Shown: positions 45,291 through 64,000 of the stretch, piece by piece
Layout: every line of letters begins with the position of its first letter
Position numbering within the stretch: position 1 is the stretch's first letter
NCBI RefSeq assembly: GCF_016861975.1
Contig: NZ_BOMB01000012.1
Span: 124,001-188,000 of the forward strand
Source: Actinocatenispora rupis
GTDB taxonomy: Bacteria; Actinomycetota; Actinomycetes; Mycobacteriales; Micromonosporaceae
Direction: 5' to 3'
DNA length: 64,000 bases
The notes under the pieces: model-generated
The model's input: only the letters and a program-made list of their open reading frames with translations
Told to the model about the DNA's origin: nothing
Databases searched by the model: none
Position numbers and translations under genes: made by a program

Positions 45291-46109
45291 ATGGTGATGG
45301 GGCCGACACATGCGGTGTCGGGTGCCGCTGCGTGGCTGGCGGGATGTTGGGCCGCCGGGCACTGGTGGCACTACCACCCGGGCCCCGTCGAGCTCGGCGT
45401 CGGTGCCGCGGTGTGCGCCGGTGCCGCGCTGCTGCCCGATCTCGACCTGTCCGGCCGGGTCACGGCGAACAAGGGCGGCGCGACGGTGGCGCACACGTTC
45501 GGCGTGGTGTCGCTGTTCTTCGCCGAGTGCGTGGAGAAGTTCTCGCTCGGGGTGTACAAGCTGACCCGGATGAAGCGGGATCCGCAGCGGCACAACGGAC
45601 ACCGCACCCTGACGCACACGTGGCTGTTCAACATCGGTCTCGGGTTCGGCGTGGGCGCGCTGTGCACGCGGTTCGGCAAGTGGGCCGTGATCGGTGTGCT
45701 GTTCGTGATGTTCGGGCTGGCGATCCGCGGTGTGCTGGCGGAATGGGCGAAGAAGCGCGGCTGGCTGATCACGACGCTGCTGTCCGCGGCCGCCGCCTTC
45801 GTGGCGTACGCGTTGCTGCCGGCGGGTCGCGGTTATCCGGTGATCGGCGCGGCGATCGCCGCGGGCGGGATCGTGCACACGTTCGGCGACATGATCACGA
45901 AGGCCGGGTGTCCGATCCTGTGGCCGCTGCCGACGGGGCGGCGCACCTGGCGCGAGTTCGGCATTCCGGACGCCATCGCGGTCGAGGTGGGTGGCGGTGT
46001 CGAGCGGCGACTCCTGCTGCCGCTGTTCGTGATCGTCGCGATCGTGGCCGGGATCGCCGTGGCCGCACCGGATGTGGTGCAACGCGTCGTGCAGGCGGCG
46101 CTCGCCTGA
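45291..46109 (+). CDS. DUF457/YdjM-type membrane-bound metal-dependent hydrolase
   Basis: A 272-residue membrane protein. It starts VMGPTHAVSGAAAWL, with the metal-site residues in LLPDLDLSGR, HNGHRTLTHTW and VHTFGDMITKAGCPILWP, and at least five hydrophobic segments. This is the LexA-binding/YdjM metal-dependent hydrolase family of unknown substrate. GGAGG at 45281-45285 fits ATG 45291; an in-frame ATG at 45254 also exists. Confidence 0.85.
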   Translation: MVMGPTHAVSGAAAWLAGCWAAGHWWHYHPGPVELGVGAAVCAGAALLPDLDLSGRVTANKGGATVAHTFGVVSLFFAECVEKFSLGVYKLTRMKRDPQRHNGHRTLTHTWLFNIGLGFGVGALCTRFGKWAVIGVLFVMFGLAIRGVLAEWAKKRGWLITTLLSAAAAFVAYALLPAGRGYPVIGAAIAAGGIVHTFGDMITKAGCPILWPLPTGRRTWREFGIPDAIAVEVGGGVERRLLLPLFVIVAIVAGIAVAAPDVVQRVVQAALA

Positions 46110-46125
46110 GCCGGGCCGCGCCGGG

Positions 46126-46401
46126 TCAGTAGACGTTGCGGTAGGCGCCCTTGGCGTTCGCGACGATGTTGCCGATGATCGTCAGCGCGGCGATCACGAT
46201 CGCGATGATGCCGAGGGTGGGCTGCCGGCCGACCCGGCGCGCGTTCATCAGGCTGAGCACGCCGAACACGACGCCGAGCGGGCCGCAGCACAGGGCGAAG
46301 ATGATGCCGAGCACGCCCCACATCGTCGTACGGTCCTTGCCGACGGCCGGGCCGACCGGCTGCTGCGGGCCCGGCTCGTACGGCGGAGGTGTCGTCGCCA
46401 T
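46126..46401 (-). CDS. DUF4190-type small membrane protein
   Basis: A 91-residue protein with a proline-rich N-terminus (TPPPYEPGPQQPVGP) and two membrane helices, GVLGIIFALCCGPLGVVFGVLSL and LGIIAIVIAALTIIGNIVA, the layout of DUF4190. It ends close to the DUF457 gene on the opposite strand. No function is known. Confidence 0.8.
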   Translation of the reverse strand: MATTPPPYEPGPQQPVGPAVGKDRTTMWGVLGIIFALCCGPLGVVFGVLSLMNARRVGRQPTLGIIAIVIAALTIIGNIVANAKGAYRNVY

Positions 46402-46468
46402 CGACCCCCCTCATCGCCGAGTTGCACCGATGGTAGGTGAGCCGACGACGCGTGGTGACGCGAATCGT

Positions 46469-47230
46469 TCAGGTCCAGAAGCGGAACAGGTGGTCGCCGT
46501 AGAAGATCGCGGCCTGCGGCACGCCGAGCCCGCCGCTGATCGCGTCCACCAGGCCGAAGAACAGCGCGTTCACCCGCGGCTCCCACAGCAGCGCGAACAC
46601 CAGCAGGATCCCGTACGGCTGGATCATCCGGGCGCCGCGCCGCCAGTGCGCCGGCAGCCACGGTTCGAGGATCCCGTACCCGTCGAGGCCGGGCATCGGC
46701 AGCAGGTTCAGCACGCTCGCGGTGATCTGCAGGAAGCACAGGAACGCCACCGCCGACCAGAAGTCGACGTGCCGCGACGCCGACAGGTCCTGCCAGAACG
46801 GTACGGCGAGCGCGATCACGAACACCACGTTCATCGCCGGGCCGGCCGCGGAGATCAGGCTGTTCCGCAGCCGGCCGCGGATCCGCGAATGGTCCACCCA
46901 GACCGCGCCGCCCGGCAGGCCGAACCCGCCGAGCAGCACGAACACCAGCGGCAACACCAGGGACAGCAACACGTTCGAGTACTTGAGCGGGTTGAGTGTC
47001 AGGTAGCCGCGCTCGGCCACGCCGTCGTCGCCGAACCGGAACGCCAGGTAGGCGTGCCCGTACTCGTGCAGGCACAGCGAGACGAGCCAGCCCGCGGCGA
47101 CCATCAGGAACGCGTCGACGCGGACGTTGCCGAACCCGGCCCAGGTCATCCAGCCGGACACCAGCAGCAGCGCCACGAGGCCGAGGAAGATCGCGGACGG
47201 GCGGCGCTGGGGATGGGTCGCGGGGATCAC
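46469..47230 (-). CDS. Site-2-protease-like M50 metallopeptidase
   Basis: A 253-residue intramembrane zinc protease. It has His55, Glu56 and His59 in LCLHEYGHA and the second metal motif NLLPMPGLDGYGI, with about six hydrophobic segments. It lacks CBS and PDZ domains, like Rv2625c-type short members. GTG 47230 overlaps the M20 stop by 4 bp, so both peptidases are co-translated. The substrate is unknown. Confidence 0.88.
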   Translation of the reverse strand: MIPATHPQRRPSAIFLGLVALLLVSGWMTWAGFGNVRVDAFLMVAAGWLVSLCLHEYGHAYLAFRFGDDGVAERGYLTLNPLKYSNVLLSLVLPLVFVLLGGFGLPGGAVWVDHSRIRGRLRNSLISAAGPAMNVVFVIALAVPFWQDLSASRHVDFWSAVAFLCFLQITASVLNLLPMPGLDGYGILEPWLPAHWRRGARMIQPYGILLVFALLWEPRVNALFFGLVDAISGGLGVPQAAIFYGDHLFRFWT

Positions 47231-48585
47231 CGGTCCGCCGGGGCCAATCTCGCCAACAGCAGCGCCTCGGCGAGGCACGCGCGACGCCACTCGCCGAGGT
47301 GCAGGCTCTCGTTGGCCCCGTGCGCGCGGGAGTCGGGGTCCTCGACGCCGGTGACCAGGATCGCCGCGGACGGGAACGCGTCGGCGAACTCGGCCACGAA
47401 CGGGATCGACCCGCCGATGCCCATGTCCACCGGCGCCGCCCCGTCCCACGCGGTACGGAACGCGTCGCGGGCCGCCTCGTACGCCGGGCCCGTCGCGTCG
47501 ATCTGGTACGGCGCGCCGACCTCACCGCGCGTCACGGTCACCGTCGCGCCCCACTCGCCGCGCGCTTCGAGGTGCTCGACCAGCGCGGTCAGCGCGGCCT
47601 CGGCGTCCTGGCCGGGCGCCAGCCGCAGGCTGACCTTGGCGCGGGCGGCCGGTACCAGGGTGTTCGACGCGTCCTTGACCGTGGGGCAGTCGATGCCGAT
47701 GACGCTGATGGCCGGCTTGTTCCAGTTGCGTTCGGTGATGGAGCCGGAGCCGATCAGCTCGACGCCGGGCAGTACGCCGGACTCGGCGCGCAGCCGCTCC
47801 TCCGGCATCTCCACGCCGGTCGGGCCGGCGTCGTGCAGGCCGGCGACGGCCACGTTGCCCGCGTCGTCGTGCAGCGTGGCGAGCAGCCGGCACAGCCCGG
47901 TCAGCGCGTCCGGCACCACCCCGCCGAACATCCCGCTGTGTACGGCGTGGCTCAGCGTGCGCACCTCGACGTAGCAGTCGACCAGGCCGCGCAGCGACGT
48001 GGTCAGCGCCGGGGTGCCGATGTCCCAGTTGCCCGAGTCGGCCAGCACCAGCACGTCCGCCGCCAGCAGATCCGAGTACTCCCGGAGGAACTTCTCCAGC
48101 GTCGGCGAACCGCACTCCTCCTCACCCTCGATGAACAGGGTGACGCCGACCGGCGGCTGCCCGTCGTACGCCCGGATCGCGGCGAGGTGCGCGGTCACGC
48201 CGGCCTTGTCGTCGGCGGCACCCCGCCCGTACAGCCGGTCGCCGTCCTCGGTCGGCTCGAACGGCTCGGTACGCCAGTCGCTCGTGTCGCCGACCGGCTG
48301 CACGTCGTGGTGCGCGTACAGCAGGACGGTGGGGGCGCCGGGCGGGGCCGGAATGCGCGCGACGACGGCCGGCTGGCCGCCCTCGACGGTCAGGATCTGC
48401 ACGTCCGGCACGCCCGCCGACCGGCACAGCTCCGCCACCATCTCGGCCGACCGGCGTACCTCGCCGTGGTCGAAGCCCGGGAACGCGACACTCGGCACCC
48501 GGACCAGCCGCTCCAGGTCCCGCCGTACGTCGGGGAGGACCCGGTCGACGGCGGCCCGGATCTCCGCATCGGTGCGCGGGCTCAT
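47227..48585 (-). CDS. M20-family dipeptidase
   Basis: A 452-residue zinc peptidase. It has the metal ligand region LLYAHHDVQPVG, GRGAADDKAG with the bridging Asp, the catalytic EGEEECGSP and the dimerisation domain with SHAVHSGMFGG. It resembles PepV/CNDP-like dipeptidases and is cytoplasmic. It is coupled to the M50 gene downstream. Confidence 0.93.
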   Translation of the reverse strand: MSPRTDAEIRAAVDRVLPDVRRDLERLVRVPSVAFPGFDHGEVRRSAEMVAELCRSAGVPDVQILTVEGGQPAVVARIPAPPGAPTVLLYAHHDVQPVGDTSDWRTEPFEPTEDGDRLYGRGAADDKAGVTAHLAAIRAYDGQPPVGVTLFIEGEEECGSPTLEKFLREYSDLLAADVLVLADSGNWDIGTPALTTSLRGLVDCYVEVRTLSHAVHSGMFGGVVPDALTGLCRLLATLHDDAGNVAVAGLHDAGPTGVEMPEERLRAESGVLPGVELIGSGSITERNWNKPAISVIGIDCPTVKDASNTLVPAARAKVSLRLAPGQDAEAALTALVEHLEARGEWGATVTVTRGEVGAPYQIDATGPAYEAARDAFRTAWDGAAPVDMGIGGSIPFVAEFADAFPSAAILVTGVEDPDSRAHGANESLHLGEWRRACLAEALLLARLAPADR

Positions 48586-48672
48586 GCCGCACCTCCGGCG
48601 AGGTGCGACGGGGCAGGGCTCGGCTGGTGGCAGGGGTGCGTTGTCATGAGCCGGATCGTATGCGCGCCCAGG

Positions 48673-49827
48673 TCAGTCGTCGTCACCACCCGGGTCCTCG
48701 CCGCGCCGGGCGTCGCCCGCCACCCAGGCACGGAACTTGTCCGCGCCGGCCTTGGCCCAGTCACCCGCCACGTTCGCCCCGTCACCGAACCGGCGCAGCA
48801 GCCCCGCCAGCGGGTCCTGCGAGCGCGCGAACGCGTCCCGGTACGACTTCGCCGCGGCCTTGACCTCCTCGCTCACCGAGGCGTCCGCGTCGTCCTCGCG
48901 GCGCGCGTAGTCCCCGGACAGGATCCGCCGGTACTCCCCCGTCTCGACCCAGTGCCGCAGCTCCGCCGCGCGCGCCACCGGCATCGGGTGGGTCGCCGCC
49001 TCCAGCAGCATCAGCTTGATGAAGCTGTCGCGCAGGTCGCCGTTCGCCCGGTCGTACTCGTTGGCCTGGGCGAGGAACGCCGCCGTGTCGATGTCCGACA
49101 GGTCGCCACCGCCGGCGAACTTCATGTGCACCCGCAGCGCCGCCGCCGGGTCCTGTCCCGCCAGCAGTCCGGCCCGGTCGGACGACAGCTCGGCCTTCCG
49201 GTACCACTCCATCAGCGCGGCGACGATGCCGCGCAGCGCCAGCGCACCCAGCGGGATCCAGTTGAGCCCGCGTACCAGCTCGACCAGCCAGACCAGCAGC
49301 GTGTGGTAGACGGCGTGGCCGGACCGGATGTGGCCCAGCTCGTGGCCGAGCACGAACCGCAGCTCGTCGTCGTCCATCATCTGCACGGTCGCGCTGTTGA
49401 CCACGATGAACGGCTTGTCCATACCGAACGCGCCCGCGTTGGCGAACGGCGTCTGCGAGACGTACAGCTCCGGCAGGTCGGCCGGCTCGCCGAAGTCCAG
49501 CGCCGCCGCGGCCTCCAGGTAGATGCCGTGGACCCGCGAGTACTGCCAGCCGTTGGCCCGGATCGCCGAGCCCAGGTACTTCATCCGGAAGTACCGCTCG
49601 TTGAACAGGCCGAAGAACTTGCGCAGGATCTCGTCGAACCCGCGCAGCTCACGCAACGCCACCAGGGCGCCGCGGTCCGCGGGGTGCTCCCAGGCGCGCG
49701 AGCTGATCCCGGTCAGGGTCAGCCGGCGGCGGGTCGGCTGGTTGCCGCCCTGCGATCCGGTCGAGTCCGACCGGCCCTCGCCCCCGCCGGCACCCCCGTC
49801 CGGTCCGCGTCCGGTGGAATCGGTCAT
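48673..49827 (-). CDS. M48-family metallopeptidase
   Basis: A 384-residue zinc protease. HELGH (His162, Glu163, His166) sits in VLGHELGHIRSGH, with a hydrophobic hairpin at about 171-205 and the third ligand in KAELSSDRAGL. The Gly/Ser-rich N-terminus is cytoplasmic. It resembles HtpX/Oma1-like quality-control proteases, but the classical N-terminal HtpX helices are missing. Confidence 0.9.
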   Translation of the reverse strand: MTDSTGRGPDGGAGGGEGRSDSTGSQGGNQPTRRRLTLTGISSRAWEHPADRGALVALRELRGFDEILRKFFGLFNERYFRMKYLGSAIRANGWQYSRVHGIYLEAAAALDFGEPADLPELYVSQTPFANAGAFGMDKPFIVVNSATVQMMDDDELRFVLGHELGHIRSGHAVYHTLLVWLVELVRGLNWIPLGALALRGIVAALMEWYRKAELSSDRAGLLAGQDPAAALRVHMKFAGGGDLSDIDTAAFLAQANEYDRANGDLRDSFIKLMLLEAATHPMPVARAAELRHWVETGEYRRILSGDYARREDDADASVSEEVKAAAKSYRDAFARSQDPLAGLLRRFGDGANVAGDWAKAGADKFRAWVAGDARRGEDPGGDDD

Positions 49828-49917
49828 CGTGCCCCTCCGTCTGCTCGCCTCGGGTTCTGCTCCTACGCTAGGTCGTTCCGGCCACCGTCGGCCTGCTTCC
49901 CGGCCCGCAACCTTCCC

Positions 49918-52356
49918 TTACGGGCAACCCCGGGCGGGTGCCCGATCGGGATTGATCCGGACAAACTCCGATGTCGGGCTGTGCGCTGTGCGGGGATCTC
50001 CGTCCACCAGGACGTCGACGTGGGCGTTGGTCCGGTCGGCGGCGAAGTGCACGTCCTCGTCCTGCATCCACCGGGTCCAGTCCGGCACCACGCCGGGTCC
50101 GTCCCGGCTGACCCCGCGGTCGAACCGGGTCCGGCGGGCCACCTGCACGAACACCGACCTCGACAACTCCGGCCGTACGATCGCGCGCGCGGTCGTCACC
50201 CCCTCCAACACCAGCACGTCGGGGAGCCCCACCTCCACCCGTTCGGTACGGAAGCGTCCGGCGTGCCAGTCGAAGCGGTGGTAGCCGGCGGGCTTGCCGC
50301 GGCGCAGCGGTGCGAGTACCCACTCCTCCAGGCGGGGCCAGAACGTCACGATGTCGAGCCAGCCCTGTAGCAGGTCGTCGGTGTGGATCAGCTCGGTACG
50401 CGCGCCGCGGTGGGTGAGCGCCTCGGTCAGTCGGGCAGCGAACGTGGTCTTGCCGGAGCCGGCGCGGCCGTCCACCGAGACCAGTCGTACGGGGCCGAGG
50501 TGGGGCGGAGCGGTGAGGATCTCGTCGGCCAGCCCGGCGTACGTCTCCACCGTCGGGCGGCCGCTGATCCACGGTTCCGGCGGCCGGGCGGGTGGTGGGC
50601 CGGCGGCGAGCGGGTCCGGAGTCTGGCCGGCGAGTACCGCGATGGTGTCCGTCGCCGGGTCGGTCGCGCCCGGACCGTCTGCGGTTGGCTCAACCGGGCC
50701 GGGTTGGACGCTGCCGTCAGAGGTCGGAGGCACGGCCGCGGCGTTGTCGGCAGGAGATGCGGTCGTGGGACCGGAGACGGATTCGTGCTCCGGGACAGCG
50801 CCGTCGGCGGACGGGTCCGGCGGGGCGCCCGGGGGTACGAATGGGAGCGTGGCGGGCGGGCCGCAGCGGATCAGGTCGGTCAGCGCGGTCGTGTCCAGGT
50901 GGTGCTCGACGAGGTCGCCGAGCCGGTCGAGGGAACGCTCGCGCAGCGCCCGGAAGTCGGTGTCCAGCGCGACCTCGAACCCGCGCCGCCCGGCGAGTCC
51001 GGCGATCTCGGTGAGGAACCGCCGCCGGAACTCGTCGCACTCGAACGCACCGTGCCAGTGCGTACCGAACACGGCGCCGGAACGGCAGCCTTCCGGCGCA
51101 CCGTCGGCGCTGGTGAGGAACGAGGGGTGCGCGTCGTCGTACCGGACGGTGGCGCGGCCATGGTGGATCTCGTAGCCGGTGACGGGGGCGCCGAGGGCGG
51201 TGCCGTGCGGTCGGGCGAGCGTCTTGTCCGGCTCGAACACCACGTCGACCGGCAGCAGCCCCAGCCCGTCGACGCGCCCGGCGCCGCTCTCGACCGGGTC
51301 GTCCAGGGTCTCGGCGAGCATCTGGTACCCGCCGCACAGGCCGAGCACGGGGCGCCCGGCGGCGGCGCGCGCCCGTACGGCGTCGGCCAGGCCACGGCGG
51401 CGCAGCCAGTCCAGATCGTCCACAGTGGACTTGCTGCCCGGCAGGACGACGAGGTCGGCGTCGATCAGCTCGTCGGGCGAGGCGGTCAGCCGTACCAGGA
51501 CGCCGGGTTCGGCGGCGATCGCCTCGACGTCGGTGGCGTTGGAGATGCGCGGGAGCCGGACGACCGCGACCCGCAACGGTTCGCTGCTGCGGGGCGCGGC
51601 GGGGCGCCCGACGAGCCGGCCGTCGGTGTACCCGAGCGAGTCCTCGGTGTCCAGCCAGAGATCCGGCTCGTACGGCAGGACGCCGAGGGTGGGGCGTCCA
51701 GTGAGACCGGTCAGCATCTCCAGACCGGGCCGGAGCAGTTCGCGGTCGCCGCGGAACCGGTTGACCACGAACCCGGCCACCAGCGCCTGGTCCGCGGGCG
51801 ACAGCAGCGCGAGCGTCCCGTACGCCGAGGCGAAGAACCCGCCGCGGTCGATGTCCCCCACCACGATGGTGGGCAGTCCCGCGGCGCGGGCGAGACCCAT
51901 GTTGGCGAGGTCGCCGGCGCGCAGGTTGATCTCGGCCGGGCTGCCGGCGCCCTCGCACACCACCACGTCGTACTCCGCGCGCAGGTCGGCGAGGGTGGCG
52001 GCGACGGTGTCGGCCAGCCCGGCTCGGACCTGTCGGTAGTCGCCGGCGCCGGTGTGGCCCCGGGCGTGGCCGAGCACGACGACCTGGCTGCGGCCGTCCG
52101 AGCCGGGTTTGAGCAGCACGGGGTTGAACCGGACGCTCGGCTCCAGGCCACAGGCGGCGGCCTGCATCGCCTGCGCGCGGCCGATCTCGCCGCCATCCGG
52201 GGTGACGGCCGAGTTGTTCGACATGTTCTGCGCCTTGAACGGCGCGACCCGTACGCCCTGCCGGTGCAGCCACCGGCAGATCCCGGCGACCAGCGTGCTC
52301 TTGCCGGCGTCGGAGGTCGTACCGGCGACGAGCACTGCACCGCGCAGCGTGCTCAC
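49918..52356 (-). CDS. cobQ: Cobyric acid synthase CobQ fused to a P-loop uridine-kinase-like domain
   Basis: A single 812-residue frame. Residues 1-495 form CobQ, with a synthetase-type P-loop [24 protein letters not shown], amidotransferase Cys341 in [10 protein letters not shown] and His433 in THWHG; it adds four amides to adenosylcobyrinate a,c-diamide. A Pro/Asp-rich linker (500-598) joins it to a kinase-like domain (600-790) with Walker [12 protein letters not shown] (629-639), HTDDLLQGW and VLVLEGV. Standalone relatives of that domain are called uridine kinase-like. The fusion is not usual for CobQ. GTG 52356 overlaps cobD by 4 bp. Confidence 0.9.
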
Positions 52357-53363
52357 CGCGACCGCCGCCGGGTGCGCAGGTAGCGGACGAGGGCGCGGCG
52401 GGCCGGGGCGGCGACGGCGTGCCCGACGGTGAGCGCGACGGCGGCCACGCCGATCGCCCGCGACAGCGTCGCCGCCCGCGATACGTCCTCGACGGTGGGC
52501 GCCCGCCCGGTGCCCAGGACGGGCCGGTCCTCGACCCGCCCCGCGTACACGTTGCGGCCACCCAGCCGTACTCCGAGGGCGCCGGCCATCGCCGCCTCGC
52601 ACTGGCCGGCGTTCGGGCTCGGGTGGCGGTGTCCGTGCCGCAGCCAGGTGCCGAGCGCGGCCCCTCTGCCGCCCCCGGCCGTCGGCGCCAGCGCGACCGT
52701 CAACACGGCACTGAGCCGCGACGGTACGAGGTTGGCCAGGTCGTCCAGCCGCGCCGCCGCCCACCCGAACCGTTCGTACCGCGGGGAACGGTGGCCGACC
52801 ATCGCGTCGAGCGTGTTGACGGCGCGGTACCCGACGAGGCCGGGCAGGCCGGCCAGCGCGCCCCAGCACAGCGGCGCGACGACCGCGTCGGAGGTGTTCT
52901 CCGCGACGGATTCGACGGTGGCGCGGGCGATCCCGGCCTCGTCGAGCGCGGCCGGGTCGCGCCCGCACAGGTGCGGCAGGCGGTCCCGGGCCGCGGCCAG
53001 GTCACCCTCGGCCAGCGCCGAGCCGAGCAACCGTGCCTCGCGCCGCAGCGACGTACCACCGAGAACGGTCCAGGTGGTGACGGCGACCGCGGCGGCGCGG
53101 GCGACGGGTCGGTCCCGGGTGGCGAGGGTGACGGCGGCCGCGGCGGCGACGGGCAGCCCGACAGCCGCGGCGACGAAGCCGATCCCGGCGGGCCGGTTCG
53201 GCTGGTACAGCCGGTGTTCCAGCCGGTTCGCGAGCGTGCCGAACGCCGCCACCGGGTGCAGCCGGCGCGGGTCGCCGAGCAGCGCGTCGAGCGCCGCGCC
53301 AACAGCGAGCCCGGCGCCGTTCGCCGCCGCCGTACGCCACGCTCTGCCGGCACGTCCGCCCAT
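52353..53363 (-). CDS. cobD: Adenosylcobinamide-phosphate synthase CobD/CbiB
   Basis: A 336-residue membrane protein that attaches aminopropanol (phosphate) to adenosylcobyrate. It has [19 protein letters not shown] at the N-terminus, [44 protein letters not shown] and [23 protein letters not shown], all standard. GAGGGG precedes ATG 53363 by six bases. It is coupled with cobQ downstream. Confidence 0.95.
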
Positions 53364-53411
53364 CGTCAACCCCTCCCCGAGAACCCGTCCACGCGCGAGC
53401 CTATGCGCCGG

Positions 53412-53972
53412 TCACGCGGCACCCGGCAGCGCGTCGTCCGCAGCCGCGCCCGCGGTCACCGGTACCGGACGGGGCTGGTCGAGGTCGAGCGGCGTGACGG
53501 TGGTTGCCGGGTCGCCCTCGTCGAGCGGCATCAGCGCGGAGCCGAGCGACAGCACGAACCCCTCCACCCGGTCATCCTCGTCGGGCACCGGATATCCGTT
53601 GGTACCGAAGGGAACCCGCTCGAACGTGGCGGTGCCACGGCTCAGGTCCGGCCCGACCGACGCGGCGTCGATCTCGTACGCCCAGCGGCGGGTGCCGTCC
53701 TTCCCCTGGTACGAACGGCTCGACAGGTTGCCCGCGACGACGACGGGATCGCCGCGCCGCACCGAGACCGACACGTTCTCCCCGAGGCGGCGCCAGCAGA
53801 CGACCCGCAGGTAGAGCGAGTTGCCGTCGACCCACTGCGCCTTCTCCCGGTTGAACGTGCGGGCCGTGCTGCCGAGGTGGAAGCTGGCCAACGGCACGTT
53901 TCCCTTCCTGGTACGCAGGAAGCGCACGTCGCTGGTGACCGTCCCGACGACGGTCGTCCGGGTCTCGAACAT
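53412..53972 (-). CDS. ssb: Single-stranded DNA-binding protein
   Basis: A 186-residue protein with one OB fold (1-115). MFETRTTVVGTVTSDVRFL, ASFHLGSTARTFNRE, LYLRVVCWRRLGENVSVSVRRGDPVVVAG and SYQGKDGTRRWAYEIDA are typical of an SSB. The C-terminus is proline-rich and lacks the acidic DDDIPF tip used to recruit repair proteins, so it is probably an accessory SSB rather than the essential one. ATG 53972 has AGAGGG upstream. Confidence 0.88.
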   Translation of the reverse strand: MFETRTTVVGTVTSDVRFLRTRKGNVPLASFHLGSTARTFNREKAQWVDGNSLYLRVVCWRRLGENVSVSVRRGDPVVVAGNLSSRSYQGKDGTRRWAYEIDAASVGPDLSRGTATFERVPFGTNGYPVPDEDDRVEGFVLSLGSALMPLDEGDPATTVTPLDLDQPRPVPVTAGAAADDALPGAA

Positions 53973-54204
53973 CGCTGAAGATCCCTCTCGTGTCGGCGGA
54001 CCGGCGTACGGCCGGTCGAAGCTGCACGGCCACCCTCGCCCGGATCCGGGGCCGCCGCCACCGCCTGTGGACGACGGAAAAGTGCCTGTGGACAACCCCC
54101 GCGTACGGCCGGATCCGTGCTATGGAGCCATGTCCGGTAGCGTCGGTGCACACAGTCGTCAGCGCAGGTGGGAAGGGCCGGTGGGCGGGACGAGGAGCGG
54201 GCCG

Positions 54205-55218
54205 GTGACCGTGCACGACGTGGCGGTCGCCGCGGGCGTGTCCCGGCAGACCGTCTCGAACGTGCTCAACGCCCCCGAACGGGTCAACCCGACCACCCGC
54301 GAGCGGGTCAAGGCCGCCATCGCCGCCCTCGGCTACCAGCCGAACCGCGCCGCGCAGGCACTCCGCGCGCACGCCTCGCGACTCATCGGGTACCGGATCC
54401 GGCCGAACAGACCGGACGCGCTCGTCGCGATCCTGGACCGGTTCCTGCACGCGTTCTCCGAGGCGGCGCGCGCGGTGGACCACCACCTGCTGCTGTTCGC
54501 GGCGGACGACGCGGACGAGGTGGCGGCCTGCGGGCGGCTGCTGTCCGGCGGCGCCGTCGACGGTTTCGTACTCTCCGACATCGACTACCGCGACCCGCGG
54601 CCGGCGGCGATCGCCGCGCTGGGCGCCCCGTTCGCGTCGTTCGGGCGGACCGGCGACGACCATCCGTGGGTCGACATCGACAACGCCGCCGGTACGGAGG
54701 CGGCCACCGCGCACCTGATCGCCGCGGGCCACCGGCGCATCGGCTACGTGGGAGTACCGGCGGGTGACCGGATCGGCGACGACCGGCACACGGGGTGGCT
54801 GCGCGCGATGTCGGCGCACGATCTCGACCCGGGACGGATCCGGCGGGTGGCCGACAGCATGGCCGCCGGCGACCGGGCCGCGGCCGAACTCCTCGCCGAG
54901 CCGCACCCGCCGTCCGCGATCGTCGCCGCCACCGACGTGTTCGCGGTGGGCGCGTGGCGCGCGGCCGAGCGGCGTGGCCTGCGCCCCGGCCGCGACCTCG
55001 CGATCACCGGCTTCGACGACACCCCGACCGCCGAGGTACTCGGCCTGACGAGCGTGCGGCAGCCGGTGGAGGCCGTGGCCCGGGCGATGATGGCGGTGCT
55101 GCTGCCCCAGTTGCCCGGCGCGCCCGCGGACGTGGCACCAGCGCCGACCGCCGGTCGACTACTCGCCCCGGAACTGGTCGTGCGCGCGTCCAGTACCGGT
55201 CGGTCCACTGTGGACTGA
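54205..55218 (+). CDS. LacI-family transcriptional regulator
   Basis: A 337-residue sugar-type repressor. The N-terminal helix-turn-helix is VTVHDVAVAAGVSRQTVSNVLN with hinge GYQPNRAAQALRA, followed by a periplasmic-binding-like effector domain with VDGFVLSDID, GHRRIGYVGVP and ITGFDDTPTAE. GTG 54205 is chosen on the GAGGAG at 54192-54197; ATG 54130 would add 25 residues. Target genes and ligand are not evident from neighbours. Confidence 0.92.
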   Translation: MTVHDVAVAAGVSRQTVSNVLNAPERVNPTTRERVKAAIAALGYQPNRAAQALRAHASRLIGYRIRPNRPDALVAILDRFLHAFSEAARAVDHHLLLFAADDADEVAACGRLLSGGAVDGFVLSDIDYRDPRPAAIAALGAPFASFGRTGDDHPWVDIDNAAGTEAATAHLIAAGHRRIGYVGVPAGDRIGDDRHTGWLRAMSAHDLDPGRIRRVADSMAAGDRAAAELLAEPHPPSAIVAATDVFAVGAWRAAERRGLRPGRDLAITGFDDTPTAEVLGLTSVRQPVEAVARAMMAVLLPQLPGAPADVAPAPTAGRLLAPELVVRASSTGRSTVD

Positions 55219-55222
55219 CCGG

Positions 55223-55753
55223 TCAGAACGTGTGCCAGATCCCCTGACGGCGCACCAGCAGGTGCCGGCTGAGCAGGTTCTCGTGGCCGGCGAAGAAGAT
55301 CCGCTCGCAGGCCCGGTGGATCTTCTCCAGGCCCGCCTGCGACTTGCTGCCGGTCACGAACATGACGTCCCGGGCCGGCACACCGACCACGATCTCGCCC
55401 TCGACCTGCGCCTCCAGGCTCGACCAGACCTCGTCGGAGGTGAGCAGCGCGGCCTCCAGGCCGTCGAACGACAGCGTGAACACCGGCGGCAGGCCGTGGA
55501 CGTCGACGCGGTCGAGCTGCTTCTCCAGGTTCTCCGCGGCGGTACGCCGCAGCGAACGCGGGCGCATGTCGAGCGCCTCCAGGTCCCCGGTGGTGATGAG
55601 CCGGTCGCCGAACTGCGGGAGGAGCAGGAACCCGACCACCAGATCGGCGTACCACTCCTCCAGCAGCGGCGCGTCCGGCCCGACCGCCGGGTGTTGCTCG
55701 GCGGCGTCGCGGGACATCGGCATGGGAATTATCGCGGACAGAGTCGGCTGCAC
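55223..55753 (-). CDS. DUF1444/YtpQ-like protein
   Basis: A 176-residue soluble protein. VVGVPARDVMFVTGSKSQAGLEKIHRACERIF and LEEWYADLVVGFLLL resemble the YtpQ/UPF0354 family, which is uncharacterised. No signal or membrane segment is present. It converges on the LacI gene with only 4 bp between stops. Identification rests on the pattern alone. Confidence 0.6.
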   Translation of the reverse strand: MQPTLSAIIPMPMSRDAAEQHPAVGPDAPLLEEWYADLVVGFLLLPQFGDRLITTGDLEALDMRPRSLRRTAAENLEKQLDRVDVHGLPPVFTLSFDGLEAALLTSDEVWSSLEAQVEGEIVVGVPARDVMFVTGSKSQAGLEKIHRACERIFFAGHENLLSRHLLVRRQGIWHTF

Positions 55754-55814
55754 GAAGGAAACGTACTGCGTGCGTCCAAGTGTTGCGAACAGCCCCCCGG
55801 ACCGTGTTGCCGTG

Positions 55815-56282
55815 CTATGACCGGTTCCCGGCCACCATCAGCCGCTTCTCCAGCCAGTGCGTCGCGGACGGATTGTCGTTGTAGCGCGGGATCTCGACGA
55901 ACCCGTGCCGCAGGTAGAGCCGGTACGCCTCGGGCAACCGGTCACCCGCCGTGTCCAGCCGCAGCACCGTACAGCCCAGCCTTTCCGCTGCCTGCTCGGC
56001 GACCTCGATCAGCCGCCCGCCCAGGCCCGCACCGCGCGCCGTGGGCCGCACGTACATCCGCTTGATCTCGCCGATGCCGGGGGCGATCTCGCGGACCGCG
56101 AGGCAGCCGAGCGGCGTGCCGTCGTCGCCGCACACCACGATCATCGTGCCGTCGCGCGCCTCGACGTCCGGGTCGGCCCCGCCGCCGTCGAACCCGTCGA
56201 CCCGCCGCGCCACCTCTGCCATGTACTCCCGCAGCAGCTCGGCCGCCGGCCCGTACGCCTCGGTTCCCGTCAGTGTCTTCAT
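55815..56282 (-). CDS. GNAT-family N-acetyltransferase
   Basis: A 155-residue acetyltransferase. The acetyl-CoA loop is EIKRMYVRPTARGAGLGGRLIEVAEQAAERLG and the final strands are LYLRHGFVEIPRYNDNPSATHWLEK, the YncA/PhnO-like ending. It diverges from the TetR gene across only 27 bp, so both share a control region. The substrate is unknown. Confidence 0.9.
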   Translation of the reverse strand: MKTLTGTEAYGPAAELLREYMAEVARRVDGFDGGGADPDVEARDGTMIVVCGDDGTPLGCLAVREIAPGIGEIKRMYVRPTARGAGLGGRLIEVAEQAAERLGCTVLRLDTAGDRLPEAYRLYLRHGFVEIPRYNDNPSATHWLEKRLMVAGNRS

Positions 56283-56309
56283 CGTACGACGTACGGTACG
56301 CTGTACGGC
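56283..56309. promoter_or_regulatory. Divergent operator between GNAT and TetR genes
   Basis: The 27-bp gap contains GTACGACGTAC-G-GTACGCTGTAC, a near-palindrome with two mismatches between arms, typical of TetR-family sites. With so little space, a bound repressor would block both genes. Confidence 0.65.
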
Positions 56310-56924
56310 ATGCCGACGCAACGGCTCACCCCCGACCGCATCACCAGCGCGGCCCTCGACCTGATGGACACCGCCGGGCTCGACGCGCTGACCATGCGCG
56401 CCCTCGCCGACCACCTCGGCGTCGGCACCATGACCCTCTACGGCTACTTCCGCTCCCGCGACGACCTGCTCGACGCCGTCGTCGACGCCGCCACCGCCCG
56501 CGCCGTCGAACGCCACCGCCCCGACGACGACCCGCGCGCCTCCCTCACCGCCCTGTTCACCGCGCTGCACACCACGCTCGCCGAACACCCCGGCCTGTAC
56601 CGGATCCGGATGTCCCGCCCGTTCCTCAGCCCCGGCGTCCTGCGTCTCGCCGACCGCGCCGTCGGCCAGCTGCGCGCCACCGGACTCGACGACACCGCCG
56701 CGATCCGCGCCTACCGCACCCTCTACCTGTTCACACTGGGCTGCGTGACGTACGCCCGGCAGGACCCCGCCGACACCCGACGCGCGCTCGCCGCGCTCCC
56801 CGACGGTGACTTCCCTTACCTGAACGCCACGGCGCCGGCAATGATCGCAACCGCGGGCGCCGACGACGAGTTCCAGTACGGTCTCCGCACGCTCGTCGCA
56901 ACCCTTACCGAACTGAGAACTTAA
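56310..56924 (+). CDS. TetR-family transcriptional regulator
   Basis: A 204-residue repressor. The helix-turn-helix is LTMRALADHLGVGTMTLYGYFRSRDDLL (about 27-54), with a C-terminal ligand domain of the TetR_C type (HTTLAEHPGLYRIRMSRPFLSP). It probably regulates itself and the divergent GNAT gene through the palindrome between them. The ATG at 56310 gives a canonical N-terminus. Confidence 0.92.
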   Translation: MPTQRLTPDRITSAALDLMDTAGLDALTMRALADHLGVGTMTLYGYFRSRDDLLDAVVDAATARAVERHRPDDDPRASLTALFTALHTTLAEHPGLYRIRMSRPFLSPGVLRLADRAVGQLRATGLDDTAAIRAYRTLYLFTLGCVTYARQDPADTRRALAALPDGDFPYLNATAPAMIATAGADDEFQYGLRTLVATLTELRT

Positions 56925-57017
56925 GGGGCTGGCGTCACGCTCCCGACTCCGCCAAGATGAGCCCTGGCCCGATCACGGTAGCCTTCACCAGCGCGCTGAT
57001 CCCCTCAGCGAGCCCCA

Positions 57018-57093
57018 GCGCCCGTAGCTCAGCGGATAGAGCAGCTGCCTTCTAAGCAGACGGTCGTAGGTTCGATCCCTACCGGGCGCACCA
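57018..57093 (+). tRNA. tRNA-Arg (anticodon UCU)
   Basis: A full cloverleaf: acceptor GCGCCCG / CGGGCGC, D-arm GCTC/GAGC, anticodon loop CTTCTAA (UCU, reads AGA), T-arm with GGTTCGATCC, discriminator A and encoded CCA (57091-57093). One anticodon-stem end pair is mismatched (G27-A43), which is tolerable. Confidence 0.95.
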
Positions 57094-57360
57094 ACAAAAC
57101 CCCTGTTCAGCGGCCGACCCGCGGCGCACAGATCGCAAAGCCCGCTTCTCCAGTAGCAGCGCCAGTAGCAATGAGGGCCGCGATGGCATCATTAACGGGG
57201 CACTCCAGCAGTGGCCTCTTGGGGATGTCGCCGGGTGTCACTGCCTCAACGCGGTCAAGAGCCGGCGCTGGCGTTGTACCGGCGGAGCCTGGCAGCAGAG
57301 GGACCGACATGGACGAACCGCGCGTGATGTTCAACCGCGTCTGCCAAACGTGCCACAGCT

Positions 57361-57534
57361 GATCACCGTGGCCTTGTACAGCGCCAACGGCAAGACGCCG
57401 ACACCGGCAACGCCGCAGGCCAGAAACCCGGGGCCGGGCAGACGAGCAACCAGGATGCGCCGAGCCTGAAGACCGATGGCATGCCCGCGAAGTTCACGTG
57501 CAAGGTGACCGACATGACCCGCAGCGAGCTGTAG
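57361..57534 (+). pseudogene. 3' stub of an unidentified gene
   Basis: A frame ending ...QDAPSLKTDGMPAKFTCKV then TDMTRSEL and TAG (57532-57534), with the preceding part TGNAAGQKPGAGQTSN. No start or upstream domain is intact, and the frame appears to change near 57400. The perfect terminator 14 bp downstream suggests that it was once the end of a functional gene. The family is not recognised. Confidence 0.35.
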
Positions 57535-57547
57535 GGGCCAGCGATAC

Positions 57548-57588
57548 GAACGGCCCGGTAGAGCCGATCTGGCTCTACCGGGCCGTTC
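57548..57588 (+). terminator. Strong perfect hairpin terminator
   Basis: An 18-bp perfect stem GAACGGCCCGGTAGAGCC / GGCTCTACCGGGCCGTTC with loop GATCT, followed by TG. It is the best stem-loop in the window and now follows only a gene stub. Confidence 0.9.
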
Positions 57589-58015
57589 TGCGGAGGCAGT
57601 GATGTTACGGCTTCAGCATCACAGAGCCAACCCTGGCCGGCCGCATCAACCGAACCGCGATCGATTCCGGGCTCGGCCGGCCGGCCTCGCACCTTCTCCA
57701 GCGGCTCTTGCAGCCGCCGTTCAGCGTCCCGACCTCTCGACGTCGATAGGTCGGACCCTGCGTGCGCAGCCTGCACGAGAGGCTCGGCTACCGCGAGTAC
57801 GGCCGATGGACCTCGACCTGGAAGTCGGGTGCCCGAAGCACCACTCAGCGAGACGCGCCGATGTGTATCTGGACGAGCCGCCCCGATCTTCAAGGTCGGC
57901 CTGAATCAGCCAGTCCTTAACACACCTTGATGCCAGTAGTTCAACCAATAGGCAGGTACATCAGTGTTCGAACGGGCGACTGGCAGAGCCTGGCTGAGTT
58001 TGGCGGAGAGTGAAG

Positions 58016-58089
58016 TGGGGCGGGTGGGGCTCGAACCCACGGCCAAGGGATTATGAGTCCCCTGCTCTAACCAGCTGAGCTACCGCCCC
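58016..58089 (-). tRNA. tRNA with CAU anticodon (Ile2 or elongator Met)
   Basis: The cloverleaf read leftward has acceptor GGGGCGG / CCGCCCC, D-arm GCTC/GAGC, anticodon loop CTCATAA within GGGGA/TCCCT, T-arm GTGGG/CCCAC with TTCGAGC, and discriminator A. CCA is not encoded. The GACTCATAATC context resembles tRNA-Ile2, which TilS would lysidinylate, but elongator Met cannot be excluded. Confidence 0.92.
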
Positions 58090-58224
58090 GGCGGCCGTCA
58101 GCCTATCCGACCGGCCCGCGCGGGAACCGCCCGGCGGTACCCAAAACCCCGCCGACCTGCGTCCCGCGGACCGCGCTCCGCGGGACGCGGACGTCGCGCA
58201 GGTTCCCGTGGTGGCGAACCCGAC

Positions 58225-58563
58225 GCTGCGCCGGGTGTGGCCCGCTTCGCCGCCTCGTACCTGGGTGACGGGTGGCCGCGGTCGCGGTGGCCTCGCAGAC
58301 CATCCTGGATGCGGGGCCCTCGCCGACGAGCTGGCCGGCGCCGGTGGGCTGGCCGCGGAGCTCGCGAGAAACCGCGCCGGGAGACCACCAACGCGGTCGT
58401 GCTGGCCGACCGGGATGCCGCGCCGATCGGGTGCTGCGGGCCGTGGCCGAGCGCGTTCCGGGACGGCTTCGGGCGCATCCAGGACGTGGTCATCGCCGTC
58501 GGGCTGGATTCGCTCGGCGACGCGTACCGGCGGACCTCCTGGTACGCCGCACGACCGGGCTGA
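58225..58563 (+). pseudogene. Probable frameshifted remnant of an unidentified gene
   Basis: Protein-like segments are spread over more than one forward frame: ARFAASYLGDGWP (near 58243), VAVASQTILDAG (near 58284), DELAGAGGLAAELARN (near 58328) and TTNAVVLADRDAAPIG followed by DVVIAVGLDSLGDAYRRTSW ending at TGA 58563. No single frame joins them, so at least two indels are implied. The original family is not recognised. It lies just upstream of the UvrA-like gene, in the region 58090-58632, which otherwise shows no gene. Confidence 0.4.
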
Positions 58564-58632
58564 CCGGCCGATACGCTGAGCGTCGGCGCGTCGCACCGCG
58601 CCGGGTACCTCGAACGGGCAGGAGCGGCGCCG

Positions 58633-61143
<2,511 letters not shown>

Positions 61144-61392
61144 GCCCATCGCGCTACACACAACACGATCAAACACTCTGACACCTGGGAGTCCGGGCCG
61201 CTCAGGCGAGGCAGGCCGAAGCCTCGCGCCGGGCCGCCGAGCGGCGGGCTGGCACTGCCTGTACCACAAACAGCGACTCTTGGTCGATCATCTGTCGGGA
61301 AGCCGCACATCCACCCATCGACCTTGATCAATGAATTGGGACCCTCTACCGTCCGGTTCTGGTTGGTCACCTTCCGCGCACAGGGAGGTTCG

Positions 61393-62190
61393 ATGGGCAC
61401 CTCGGCGAGCTACCCGGGACCGGTAGGCGGGAGCAGCGCGGACAACAGGACGTGGAAGCGCACCCGACAACGCTTGACGGCTCTTGGCAAGCAACTCGAC
61501 AAGGTCCTCCACGGACCGGGAGGCGTCAATGCCGCGCAACAGTTGCTGCGAGACCGCCAGGACGACATCGCCGCCGACTTGGCCACCGGCCTGCGCCTCC
61601 ACCCGAGCCGAGTACTTCTGGCCGAGCCCATCACCGCCCGTGCCCGCGCACTGGTCGACACGCTGGATCGACTACAGCTCAACGGGCTGGCCGGGATCGG
61701 CGTTGTCGGTGCATCACCGGACGAGCGCGAACTCCAGTTCATGGCCGCCTTTCTCGGCGACAGGTCTACCGGCACCGTCCCCGATTACGCTGTACGGCGC
61801 GGTCTACGAAGCACCATCGATACCGCGCTCCGGGACAATGCGCCGCTTCGCCAGGCCGTTCGGAGCGGCAATGCGGGCTATCGGCCGCCGCGTGATCTGT
61901 TCTGCGCGATCTTCCAGATGTTCTTCGCCGATGCCGTACGCGCGTACCTGCGCACCGTCGTCGCCGAACATCTCAAGATCGCCCTACCGGTGCTGTACCT
62001 CGACCCCACTGGGCTGATCGCTGACACGGCGGCGAAGAAGCTGGTCAGCCTGGTTCCCAACCCGTGCGAGGAAGAGCACCGCCGGGCGGGCCCACACCAC
62101 GACAGCCTCGCGGGTACGGCGCGTTCGTTGGTCGTCCGAGCGGTCTCGCAGATCCTCGACCTCGACGAACCAGGCGTGGAGGCGGCATGA
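61393..62190 (+). CDS. qatB: QatB-like anti-phage protein
   Basis: A 265-residue soluble protein starting MGTSASYPGPVGGSS, an N-terminus shared by QatB-type proteins of the QatABCD defence system. The rest is helical, with no enzyme motif that I recognise. GGGAGG precedes ATG 61393, and its TGA overlaps the qatC ATG by 4 bp, so the two are made together. QatB is essential in known Qat systems but its biochemistry is unclear. Identification rests on the N-terminus and the partner gene; a homology search would settle it. Confidence 0.65.
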   Translation: MGTSASYPGPVGGSSADNRTWKRTRQRLTALGKQLDKVLHGPGGVNAAQQLLRDRQDDIAADLATGLRLHPSRVLLAEPITARARALVDTLDRLQLNGLAGIGVVGASPDERELQFMAAFLGDRSTGTVPDYAVRRGLRSTIDTALRDNAPLRQAVRSGNAGYRPPRDLFCAIFQMFFADAVRAYLRTVVAEHLKIALPVLYLDPTGLIADTAAKKLVSLVPNPCEEEHRRAGPHHDSLAGTARSLVVRAVSQILDLDEPGVEAA

Positions 62191-63452
62191 GCTTCCGGTA
62201 CGACATCGACAACTCGCCCAGAGGTGAGGCACCCCGCCGTGGCTGGGAACGGCTTCCGCTGAAGCAACTTCGCGCCACCATGGCCACCATCGAGGGCATG
62301 GCAGCTCCGGCGGGGCGCGACACCCAGCACTGGGGCGACGACATGTTTCTGGTTGCCCGCGCCGTCTACCTCGCCGACCGGATGTCGGATCGCCGGTCGA
62401 CCACTGACCGGTGGACCCGAGCCATCGAGCTCCAGATCCCCGTCGTCGAGTACGACCGCTGGACCTCCGTCGTGGTGGGCACGCTGCATGAGTTGCTGTC
62501 CCTGCTCACCGGTGATCACTGGACCGTGACGATCAGGCCGAGCAGCCGCGCCTACACCCTTGACGACATGCTCCCCCTGCCAGTCATCGGCGGCCGCCAG
62601 GCAGAGGAGATCGCGCTGTTCTCCGGTGGGCTGGACTCGGCGAGCTATGCCGCTCGATCGGTGTACCGGAACACGAAGACCGCATACATCGGCTACGCGC
62701 ATCCGAACCTAAAGGGTCGAGTGAGTGAGGTCTTCCGTCGCCTTCGGATGCCCGAACACTTTCACCCAGTACCCCTCGATGTCTTCAACCCCAAGGACAT
62801 GACGTTCCGCAGCAGAGGGTTCCTGTTCGTCGGTACCGCAATCCGCGCCGCGTCGGCGTACGAGGCACGTCGAGTGGTTGTGCCGGAGAATGGGCAGCTC
62901 GCGCTGAACCCGCCACTGACCGACGCGCGAGCGGCGTCTTGCTCGACCAGGTCGGTACACCCGCGCACGCTGTACCTGTTCAACCGGCTCCTGGCCGAGC
63001 TTGAGATGCCCGTGGCGGTCGTCAACCCGTTCGAACGGCTGACGAAGGGCGAGGTCTGCCGGTCAGCGCTGGACGCCGGAGCCGATGCGGAGACCCTGTT
63101 CCGGACCATCAGCTGCGGTCACCCGCCGATCGAGCGGGGCAGGTCGACCAGCGGGCATTGCGGGCGCTGCTTTCCCTGCCTGGTAAGGCGTTCAGCGCTG
63201 CTGGCAGCGCTCGGCAGCGACCGTTCCGACTACCAGTACGACTACGGAGGCCCGGGCGCCGACGTACTCGCGTTGCGACGGTGGCTGGGTACCCGGTTCA
63301 TGCTCACCGACCTGCTGGCGGACACGCCGCTGCCGGCGACCACCGGCCTGCTAGACGCGTACGAGACGGTCGTTCGCGGCAGGCAAGAGCTGGCGCGGCT
63401 GTTCCAGTCCCTCCCCCACAACCACGACCTCTACCTCGACGCCGCTGCCTGA
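62187..63452 (+). CDS. qatC: QatC-like (QueC-related) anti-phage protein
   Basis: A 421-residue protein with a PP-loop ATP-pyrophosphatase motif FSGGLDSASYAARS (about 148-161), VVVPENGQLALNPPLTDARA, STRSVHPRTLYLF, and a Cys-rich zinc site C-G-H ... GHCGRCFPCLVRR near 355. This is the QueC (7-cyano-7-deazaguanine synthase)-related branch used as QatC in Qat defence, not housekeeping QueC (about 230 residues). It is translationally coupled to QatB. Neither QatA ATPase nor QatD TatD-nuclease genes flank it. Confidence 0.75.
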   Translation: MSFRYDIDNSPRGEAPRRGWERLPLKQLRATMATIEGMAAPAGRDTQHWGDDMFLVARAVYLADRMSDRRSTTDRWTRAIELQIPVVEYDRWTSVVVGTLHELLSLLTGDHWTVTIRPSSRAYTLDDMLPLPVIGGRQAEEIALFSGGLDSASYAARSVYRNTKTAYIGYAHPNLKGRVSEVFRRLRMPEHFHPVPLDVFNPKDMTFRSRGFLFVGTAIRAASAYEARRVVVPENGQLALNPPLTDARAASCSTRSVHPRTLYLFNRLLAELEMPVAVVNPFERLTKGEVCRSALDAGADAETLFRTISCGHPPIERGRSTSGHCGRCFPCLVRRSALLAALGSDRSDYQYDYGGPGADVLALRRWLGTRFMLTDLLADTPLPATTGLLDAYETVVRGRQELARLFQSLPHNHDLYLDAAA

Positions 63453-63487
63453 CCGGCGATGGCGTTCATCGGCGGATCAGTTGCGGA

Positions 63488-63580
63488 CTAGGTGTTGCGG
63501 TTCATGAGGTTGGTGACGCTGGCGGGGTAGGGCAATGACAGGGACGGGTCTCCCACCGGCAGGATGTGAAGTGGGACCAC
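63488..63580 (-). pseudogene. Possible C-terminal remnant of an IS481-like transposase
   Basis: A leftward frame ends GDPSLSLPYPASVTNLMNRNT and TAG, similar in style to the tail of IS481-family transposases. Upstream of it the frame turns into the antisense of the opposite transposase N-terminus, so only the last 20-30 codons are present. Confidence 0.35.
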
Positions 63581-63609
63581 ACGTCCTGATGACCCGGAGG
63601 AGACCCGTC
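63543..63609. repeat. Inverted repeat at transposase remnant
   Basis: GACGGGTCTCC (63543-63553) and GGAGACCCGTC (63599-63609) are perfect inverted arms around 45 bp. They lie immediately upstream of the IS481-type start codon. They may be part of an IS end or an mRNA structure covering the ribosome site. Confidence 0.6.
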
Positions 63610-63777
63610 GTGGGCCACCGTAACGCCCCGCTGACACCGGCCGGCAGGTTGCGTCTGGTCCAGCGCTGCCAGACCCGCCCGATCGCGCACGTCGCAGCCG
63701 AGGCCGGCATCTCCCGACAATGGCTCTGTCGAAATGGGTAGGCCGGTGGCGACAGGCCGGGGAGAGGATGCCTTCCC
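63610..63777 (+). pseudogene. Truncated IS481-family transposase
   Basis: GTG 63610 opens VGHRNAPLTPAGRLRLVQRC followed by QTRPIAHVAAEAGISRQ, the typical IS481 helix-turn-helix N-terminus. The frame then stops (WLCRNG) but continues one base out of register as LSKWVGRWRQAGERM, so a single-base insertion or substitution-indel has occurred near 63721. After about 50 codons the transposase similarity ends abruptly. Confidence 0.75.
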
Positions 63778-63779
63778 AG

Positions 63780-63910
63780 TCGGAGGGCAATCGAGTTGGA
63801 GTTGCGCGATCAACGGTCCAGTCCGCGCTGCGGCTACTCGCCGCCTCGGGTCTGATCGTGTTTCGGCAAGGCACCCGCATGTTCGTCGCAGACGCCCAAC
63901 CCACCGAAGC
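63780..63910 (+). pseudogene. GntR-type regulator fragment joined to the transposase remnant
   Basis: Directly after the transposase stub the same frame reads GNRVGVARSTVQSALRLLAASGLIVFRQGTRMFVADAQP. This is the second half of a GntR winged helix (recognition helix and wing) with no start or effector domain. It shows a deletion joining IS481 and GntR sequences. The remaining bases to 64000 show no recognisable gene. Confidence 0.6.
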
Positions 63911-64000
63911 TTGGCACGGCAGAGGAAGGCAGTGTCAAACGTTCGGCGTAGCTCGGGGTTGGGTGGGTTACTTGGTACACGCTCTGGCGGGCTCACGCCG

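Follow-up and report, generated by a model that had tools for sequence, protein, structure and literature searches.

Two overlapping genes of Actinocatenispora rupis probably constitute a minimal anti-phage unit of natural origin, a stand-alone QatBC whose QatC would modify the N-terminal glycine of QatB. They lie in the 64,000-nt stretch of DNA that was analysed, called hereafter the window. According to the main text of Gao et al. (PMC13279940), QatB and QatC of P. aeruginosa and E. coli form a 1:1 complex, QatBC without QatA and QatD gives full protection against lambda, and defence is abolished by the QatB G2D mutation as well as by mutations in the QatC SGGxDS motif or in T278/T280. The same text (Gao et al. 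2026) leaves the reaction and the substrate of QatC unidentified. Since the window pair has the parts needed by this published QatBC model, a stand-alone immune unit is proposed.

The qatB-like gene (61393..62190, + strand) encodes a 265-aa protein with an MGTS start (MGTSASYPGP...), the putative QatC substrate protein, and the qatC-like gene (62187..63452, + strand) a 421-aa QueC-family ATP-pyrophosphatase. The two frames share an ATGA (4-nt overlap), in agreement with the earlier note, which had described two coupled genes at these positions, the first with this start and the second QueC-related. A cassette (61283..63480, + strand) is common to the window and to genome G004 of the same genus, with 80.5% DNA identity over a 2203-bp alignment; homology begins about 110 bp ahead of QatB and runs on for about 28 bp past QatC. 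Outside the cassette, the only match between window positions 45000–64000 plus the next 12 kb and the 60 kb surrounding the pair in G004 was a 75%-identical 258-bp stretch (63489..63737), and the flanks are called unrelated for these compared stretches. Because the flanks differ in G004, the unit was delimited as the two genes plus some 110 bp of preceding DNA. A possible promoter, TTGATC - 17 nt - TACCGT (61324..61352, + strand), was spotted by eye, and its hexamers and spacing are the same in G004. An automatic scan for sigma-70 promoters and terminators gave no match, and an Rfam scan gave one tRNA gene (58016-58089, - strand, RF00005, 72.4 bits) and no other match.

The upstream neighbour is a UvrA-like gene of 836 aa (58633..61143, + strand), as previously noted; it scores 858 bits against TIGR00630, for a cut-off of 729.8. 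A partnership of B and C with this protein had been suggested and was rejected: the same cassette of about 2.2 kb occupies an unrelated site in the sister genome G004, and no recurrent UvrA neighbour was seen in the neighbour clusters of the 34 related loci described below. The limits of the cassette in G004, together with the G+C content of the pair (67.0% for QatB, 66.7% for QatC, versus 75.2% for the UvrA-like gene), therefore indicate that UvrA is a chance neighbour, outside the system. The downstream transposase and GntR remnants of the earlier note are recognisable by eye only, Pfam being blank for the two short stretches that were searched. By eye, the 63489..63737 segment resembles the start of an insertion-sequence transposase; its counterpart in G004 is about 12 kb away from the pair, and it is likewise judged outside the system.

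Identification of the second protein as QatC relies on several profiles. The PADLOC QatC model matched it at 7e-62 and the NCBIfam QatC model at 1.6e-69, yet with 234.7 bits, below the curated cut-off of 280. At E <= 0.1, the PDB yielded two sequences and no more, the QatC chains 9vlk_A (2.7e-35) and 9zee_B (3.3e-34). The protein contains SGGLDS (146-151), R208, R210, F214, the segment ENGQLALNPPL, T254, S256, H258 and P259, the register of the substrate site being taken from the alignment to PDB QatC, and four putative zinc cysteines, C310, C325, C328 and C331. In all 33 aligned QatCs of the pair group (see below), SGG.DS, R208, R210, E234-N235-G236, H258, P259, the four cysteines and R334 are kept. 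The earlier note had taken the intact look of the PP-loop and zinc site as arguing against pure decay.

The substrate loop is more distinctive. QatCs of QatABCD systems usually have STRTTHP, TTRSTHP or STRSTHP, whereas the signature of the pair group is ST[RK]SVHP or SSRSVHP. Positions 256-257 are S-V in the 33 pair-group rows; in 23 QatABCD rows, position 256 is T (14) or S (9) and position 257 is T (21) or A (2). Position 254, equivalent to T278 of P. aeruginosa, is T in 30 pair-group rows and S in three. T280 of P. aeruginosa corresponds to S256 in the window QatC, which has kept the first (as T254) but not the second of the two substrate-site threonines (T278, T280) described as invariant. 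The occurrence of serine at the second position in 9 of the 23 rows of the other group shows that threonine is not strictly invariant among QatCs. AlphaFold2 models built from two-row alignments had mean pLDDT values of 46.2 (QatB) and 45.6 (QatC), too poor for use.

The first protein is far more divergent. Window QatB had no match in PADLOC, Pfam or NCBIfam (E <= 1), and none in the PDB as a lone query. Profile-profile comparison by hhalign of 31 pair-group QatBs with 18 QatBs of the other group (mostly QatA-linked, plus plasmids) gave a probability of 97.9 and an E-value of 3.6e-13, and still 89.3 and 2.1e-6 when the first 45 residues were removed, versus 4.2 and 0.0099 for a control with reversed sequences. 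A smaller comparison (19 versus 5 sequences) gave 51.5 and 1.5e-4. When a mixed profile was searched against the PDB, the two best matches were the QatBs 9zee_A (1.2e-4) and 9vll_A (0.058), the latter labelled DUF5610 but sharing the 9vll entry with a QatC chain; a profile of pair-group QatBs alone retrieved no QatB from the PDB. Identity between QatA-linked QatBs and the core of window QatB is 13-20%. Of the 34 pair loci, 32 had an ORF starting with xGTS at the position of QatB, as did 18 of the 23 QatABCD loci; these counts are successes and no test of invariance, because the ORF search demanded the motif. Given the profile-profile comparison and the mixed-profile PDB matches, we accept the first ORF as a true, if remote, QatB. 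No unrelated family fitted both proteins better than QatB and QatC in PADLOC, Pfam, NCBIfam, PDB or profile-profile comparisons, which disposes of an objection foreseen in the earlier note.

Profiles of QatA and QatD made from relatives had no match in the window, nor in a further 40 kb that was fetched and extends to window position ~96000 (about 32 kb beyond the window); the intact qatA and qatD genes that might have been sitting just past position 64000 are thus not seen in that interval. Across 33 pair genomes, the PADLOC QatA model gave partial matches only (43.7 bits in the window genome, G000, 45.3 in G217 and 57.2 in G215), compared to 150-209 bits at best for three QatA positive controls. 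In the window genome, the protein partially matched is large and encoded on contig C52; the Pfam KAP model detects it too. Absence of QatD in pair genomes was scored near the loci (from the window to ~96000 for the window genome).

With profile P0003, a QatC-type protein was detected in 39 genomes out of 354 in the family to which the window belongs, in 7 of 396 drawn across the phylum and in 21 of 392 of genus g50. Sixty-three QatC-type loci were fetched and scored against a pair-group QatC profile. At 34 loci scores were 383-686 bits, and none had a QatA or QatD match. The other 29 scored 79-255 bits; 19 had QatA upstream and QatD downstream, one had QatD only and nine had neither. The 34 pair loci consist of one from Actinomadura (L002, Thermomonosporaceae), 21 from family f1 and 12 from family f4, which we take to be Micromonosporaceae and Streptomycetaceae, respectively. 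An intact pair, with an ATGA/GTGA overlap and an open QatC frame, is present at 30 of them. No QatB ORF was found at L049, cut upstream by the contig end, or at L053, and QatC is frameshifted at L054 and L055; at L134, a contig end leaves little of the downstream side visible. Clusters common to many of the 34 loci were B, C, metabolic genes bound to the site, small regulators and pgl, and no third conserved gene emerged among them.

In an unrooted tree of 63 rows, including four plasmid QatCs (L055, L070, L071 and L094 were dropped as short), a branch with support 99/98 separated the 33 pair-group QatCs from all other rows, several of which are on long branches. The rows nearest to the pair group, L056, L057 and L066 (genomes G325, G348 and G073), are QatC-like, with no QatB ORF found. 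Their substrate loops look broken (e.g. GIRAAHP, VPRPANP), and L066 also deviates from SGGxDS. The dN/dS ratio between the window and G004 was 0.263 for QatB and 0.223 for QatC, and 0.17-0.31 in four other species pairs: the pair is under purifying selection. Distance matrices of QatB and QatC correlate (r 0.93, n=31), as expected for any co-inherited genes. Two pattern scans of IMG/VR viral contigs found no relatives. Among phage records, two from Listeria were found at 29%, and 142 plasmid records all share less than 60% identity, the four examined showing the order NTPase-B-C-TatD.

At 13 of the 34 loci, type 2 BREX (Pgl) genes lie beside or around the pair, and PADLOC names these neighbours PglW, BrxC/PglY and PglZ; there are none at the window, where no Pgl profile match was obtained down to ~96000. 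At eight of the 34 loci (L038-L041, L089, L125, L131, L132), PglY and PglZ are divergently upstream and PglX lies 6.7-10.6 kb downstream; five more (L042, L045, L047, L050, L054) have PglW upstream. PglY is found in 84 of the 354 family genomes, namely in 11 of 21 pair genomes (one a fragment) versus 73 of 333 others (Fisher p 0.003, relatedness ignored). Such figures favour a pair that works with host or BREX type 2 proteins, for instance as a protein-modifying accessory, solo copies being leftovers or having another partner. We consider this unlikely, however: the p value ignores relatedness, defence genes cluster anyway, a whole pgl gene adjoining the pair is missing at 21 of the 34 loci, and PglY is absent from the window genome, G004, G003, G005 and G339. 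Moreover, only PglW/PglY scraps lie beside the intact pairs of L043 (at ~-944 from QatC) and L046 (~-934 and ~-3513), which we read as BREX type 2 having decayed while the pair stayed. In our reading, the pair has docked repeatedly in defence clusters, and its presence at Pgl loci is no sign of dependence.

That the pair is a decaying remnant of a QatABCD operon, left after loss of qatA and qatD in the lineage, would fit the absence of both genes, the broken state of some relatives (L053, L054, L055) and, as in mobile, unstable DNA, the lower G+C content and the adjoining insertion-sequence-like remnants. It is nevertheless very improbable, as the same state recurs at 34 loci forming one group in the tree, the catalytic and zinc residues are intact, dN/dS is well below 1 and the cassette has limits of its own. 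The same observations, with the 4-nt overlap kept at 30 of 34 loci, speak for one of the earlier note's alternatives, a reduced system using B and C alone, and against the other, a deletion remnant, as far as recent decay is meant. A non-defence function, in which modification of QatB by QatC would serve housekeeping or development in actinomycetes, is just as hard to credit. It could account for the vertical inheritance of the pair within one genus at a constant chromosomal site, beside ordinary metabolic genes (L042-L055), and for the lack of members on IMG/VR contigs, but not easily for the patchy occurrence (21 of 354 family genomes, 12 of 392 of genus g50, and two of four in the window's genus, congeners G003 and G005 having no QatC) or the unrelated sites in sister genomes. 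Proximity to BREX, and the fact that the relatives are defence proteins, also count against it.

Under the stand-alone QatBC reading, QatB and QatC would be translated as a coupled pair and associate in a complex. Once its start methionine is removed, QatB would present G2 of MGTS, on a flexible tail, to the active site of QatC. With ATP, the enzyme would adenylate a carboxylated small molecule and join it to the N-terminal glycine of QatB, and modified QatB would restrict the phage without QatA or QatD. We infer that the actinomycete pair acts like QatBC, and in the same manner the chemistry and the way in which modified QatB stops phage.

The nature of the small molecule was considered from the gene content of the hosts. 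Cap9 uses 7-carboxy-7-deazaguanine (CDG), the making of which needs QueD and QueE (main texts of PMC13279940 and PMC13329287). The assembly of the window genome (96.8% complete, 81 contigs) had no match to the QueD models TIGR03367 and PF01242, nor to a QueE profile, a narrow one made from five sequences of queE-containing loci. PF01242, the QueD family, was absent from 9 of 33 tested pair genomes (G000, G004, G339, G136, G137, G893, G844, G900, G1049) and from 4 of 18 tested QatABCD genomes (G073, G787, G378, G695). The other 24 pair genomes have a PF01242 protein; in nine it scores 94-138 bits, whereas the remaining ones, of unclear role, score about 75-88 bits. A strong QueE match was obtained in 5 of 22 tested genomes, and a weaker one in G137 (86.6 bits). 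We tentatively suggest that host-made CDG is not used, that another carboxylated metabolite is placed on the N-terminal glycine of QatB, and that the two-gene unit is a complete immune system. If true, this would be a protein modification not yet described. A non-CDG substrate is plausible, rather than shown, because of the lack of QueD-family or QueE matches in the genomes named and the Thr/Ser nucleobase site; counter-points are the PF01242 and QueE matches of other pair genomes, the narrow QueE profile and the chance that CDG comes from outside. Since the pair occurs in genomes without detectable CDG-making genes, the published CDG working model may not hold for QatC.

Compared to qatABCD of P. 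aeruginosa and E. coli (main text of PMC13279940), the pair group shares the MGTS start of QatB, the order B-C with overlapping frames, and SGGxDS, RxRxxxF, HP and the four zinc cysteines of QatC. It differs by very divergent QatB cores and by the absence of QatA (a KAP NTPase, upstream in QatABCD) and QatD (a TatD-like nuclease, downstream), so that the window has the QatC and the QatB homologue of QatABCD but neither of the other two. Features of the QatBC core, SGGxDS, R210, F214 and the four cysteines, are all present. The QatBC-only constructs of the same paper also consist of B and C only, and full lambda protection is reported for them; they are truncations made by the authors from proteobacterial systems, whereas the pair group is natural and actinomycete. 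Deazaguanylation by Cap9 in type IV CBASS (PMC11996544, PMC13279940) is alike in the proposed chemistry, a QueC-family enzyme acting on the N-terminal glycine of a partner. In contrast to the window QatC with its 421 aa and Thr/Ser, Cap9 has a median length of about 185 aa (main text of PMC13329287), a CD-NTase partner and Tyr/Asp nucleobase contacts; the window partner has no Pfam or NCBIfam match and aligns with QatB. Canonical QueC has the PF06508 fold, SGGxDS and the zinc site in common with window QatC, which differs by scoring only 18 bits against TIGR00364 (cut-off 150.3) and by a genome with no queD/queE match. No queC, queD or queE gene neighbours were found at pair loci.

Natural QatBC-only loci were not described in the literature found by our search or in the main texts of PMC13279940, PMC13329287, PMC12839542 and PMC10482375, and the main text of the BREX survey (PMC12839542) contains no occurrence of QueC or Qat. 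In the main text of PMC13329287, qatA is near 34.3% and qatD near 33.6% of the QatC cluster; QatCs without qatA or qatD are therefore numerically not rare, which lowers the novelty. With a natural B-C-only group, the minimal unit is more than a product of truncation in the laboratory. The host and several relatives are seemingly unable to make the presumed substrate, and the pair may therefore help to reveal the true activity of QatC; pair genomes without detectable CDG genes are backgrounds for direct substrate tests. Finders requiring QatA or QatD would miss such loci, whose repeated location among type 2 BREX genes offers another lead.

Other QatC-type loci also depart from the usual arrangement. 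A distinct QatC lineage (L068, L069, L093, in G351, G038 and G541) has a short xGTS QatB of 223-230 aa and no QatA or QatD match, and L068 and L069 share an uncharacterised gene ahead of QatB; the lineage may represent a further Qat type, reduced or with other equipment. In G094-G098, all of one genus (L070 and L071 are from this set), the QatC match spans only the C-terminal third, the zinc-site part. In G004, a Schlafen group 3 helicase protein (L036:7528-9333; PF09848, 273 bits) adjoins the pair on the opposite strand. Past the end of the window, from about window position 72391, the - strand encodes a 1167-aa protein (L034:16392-19895) whose start looks, by eye, like a caspase-like peptidase (FSGHG...).
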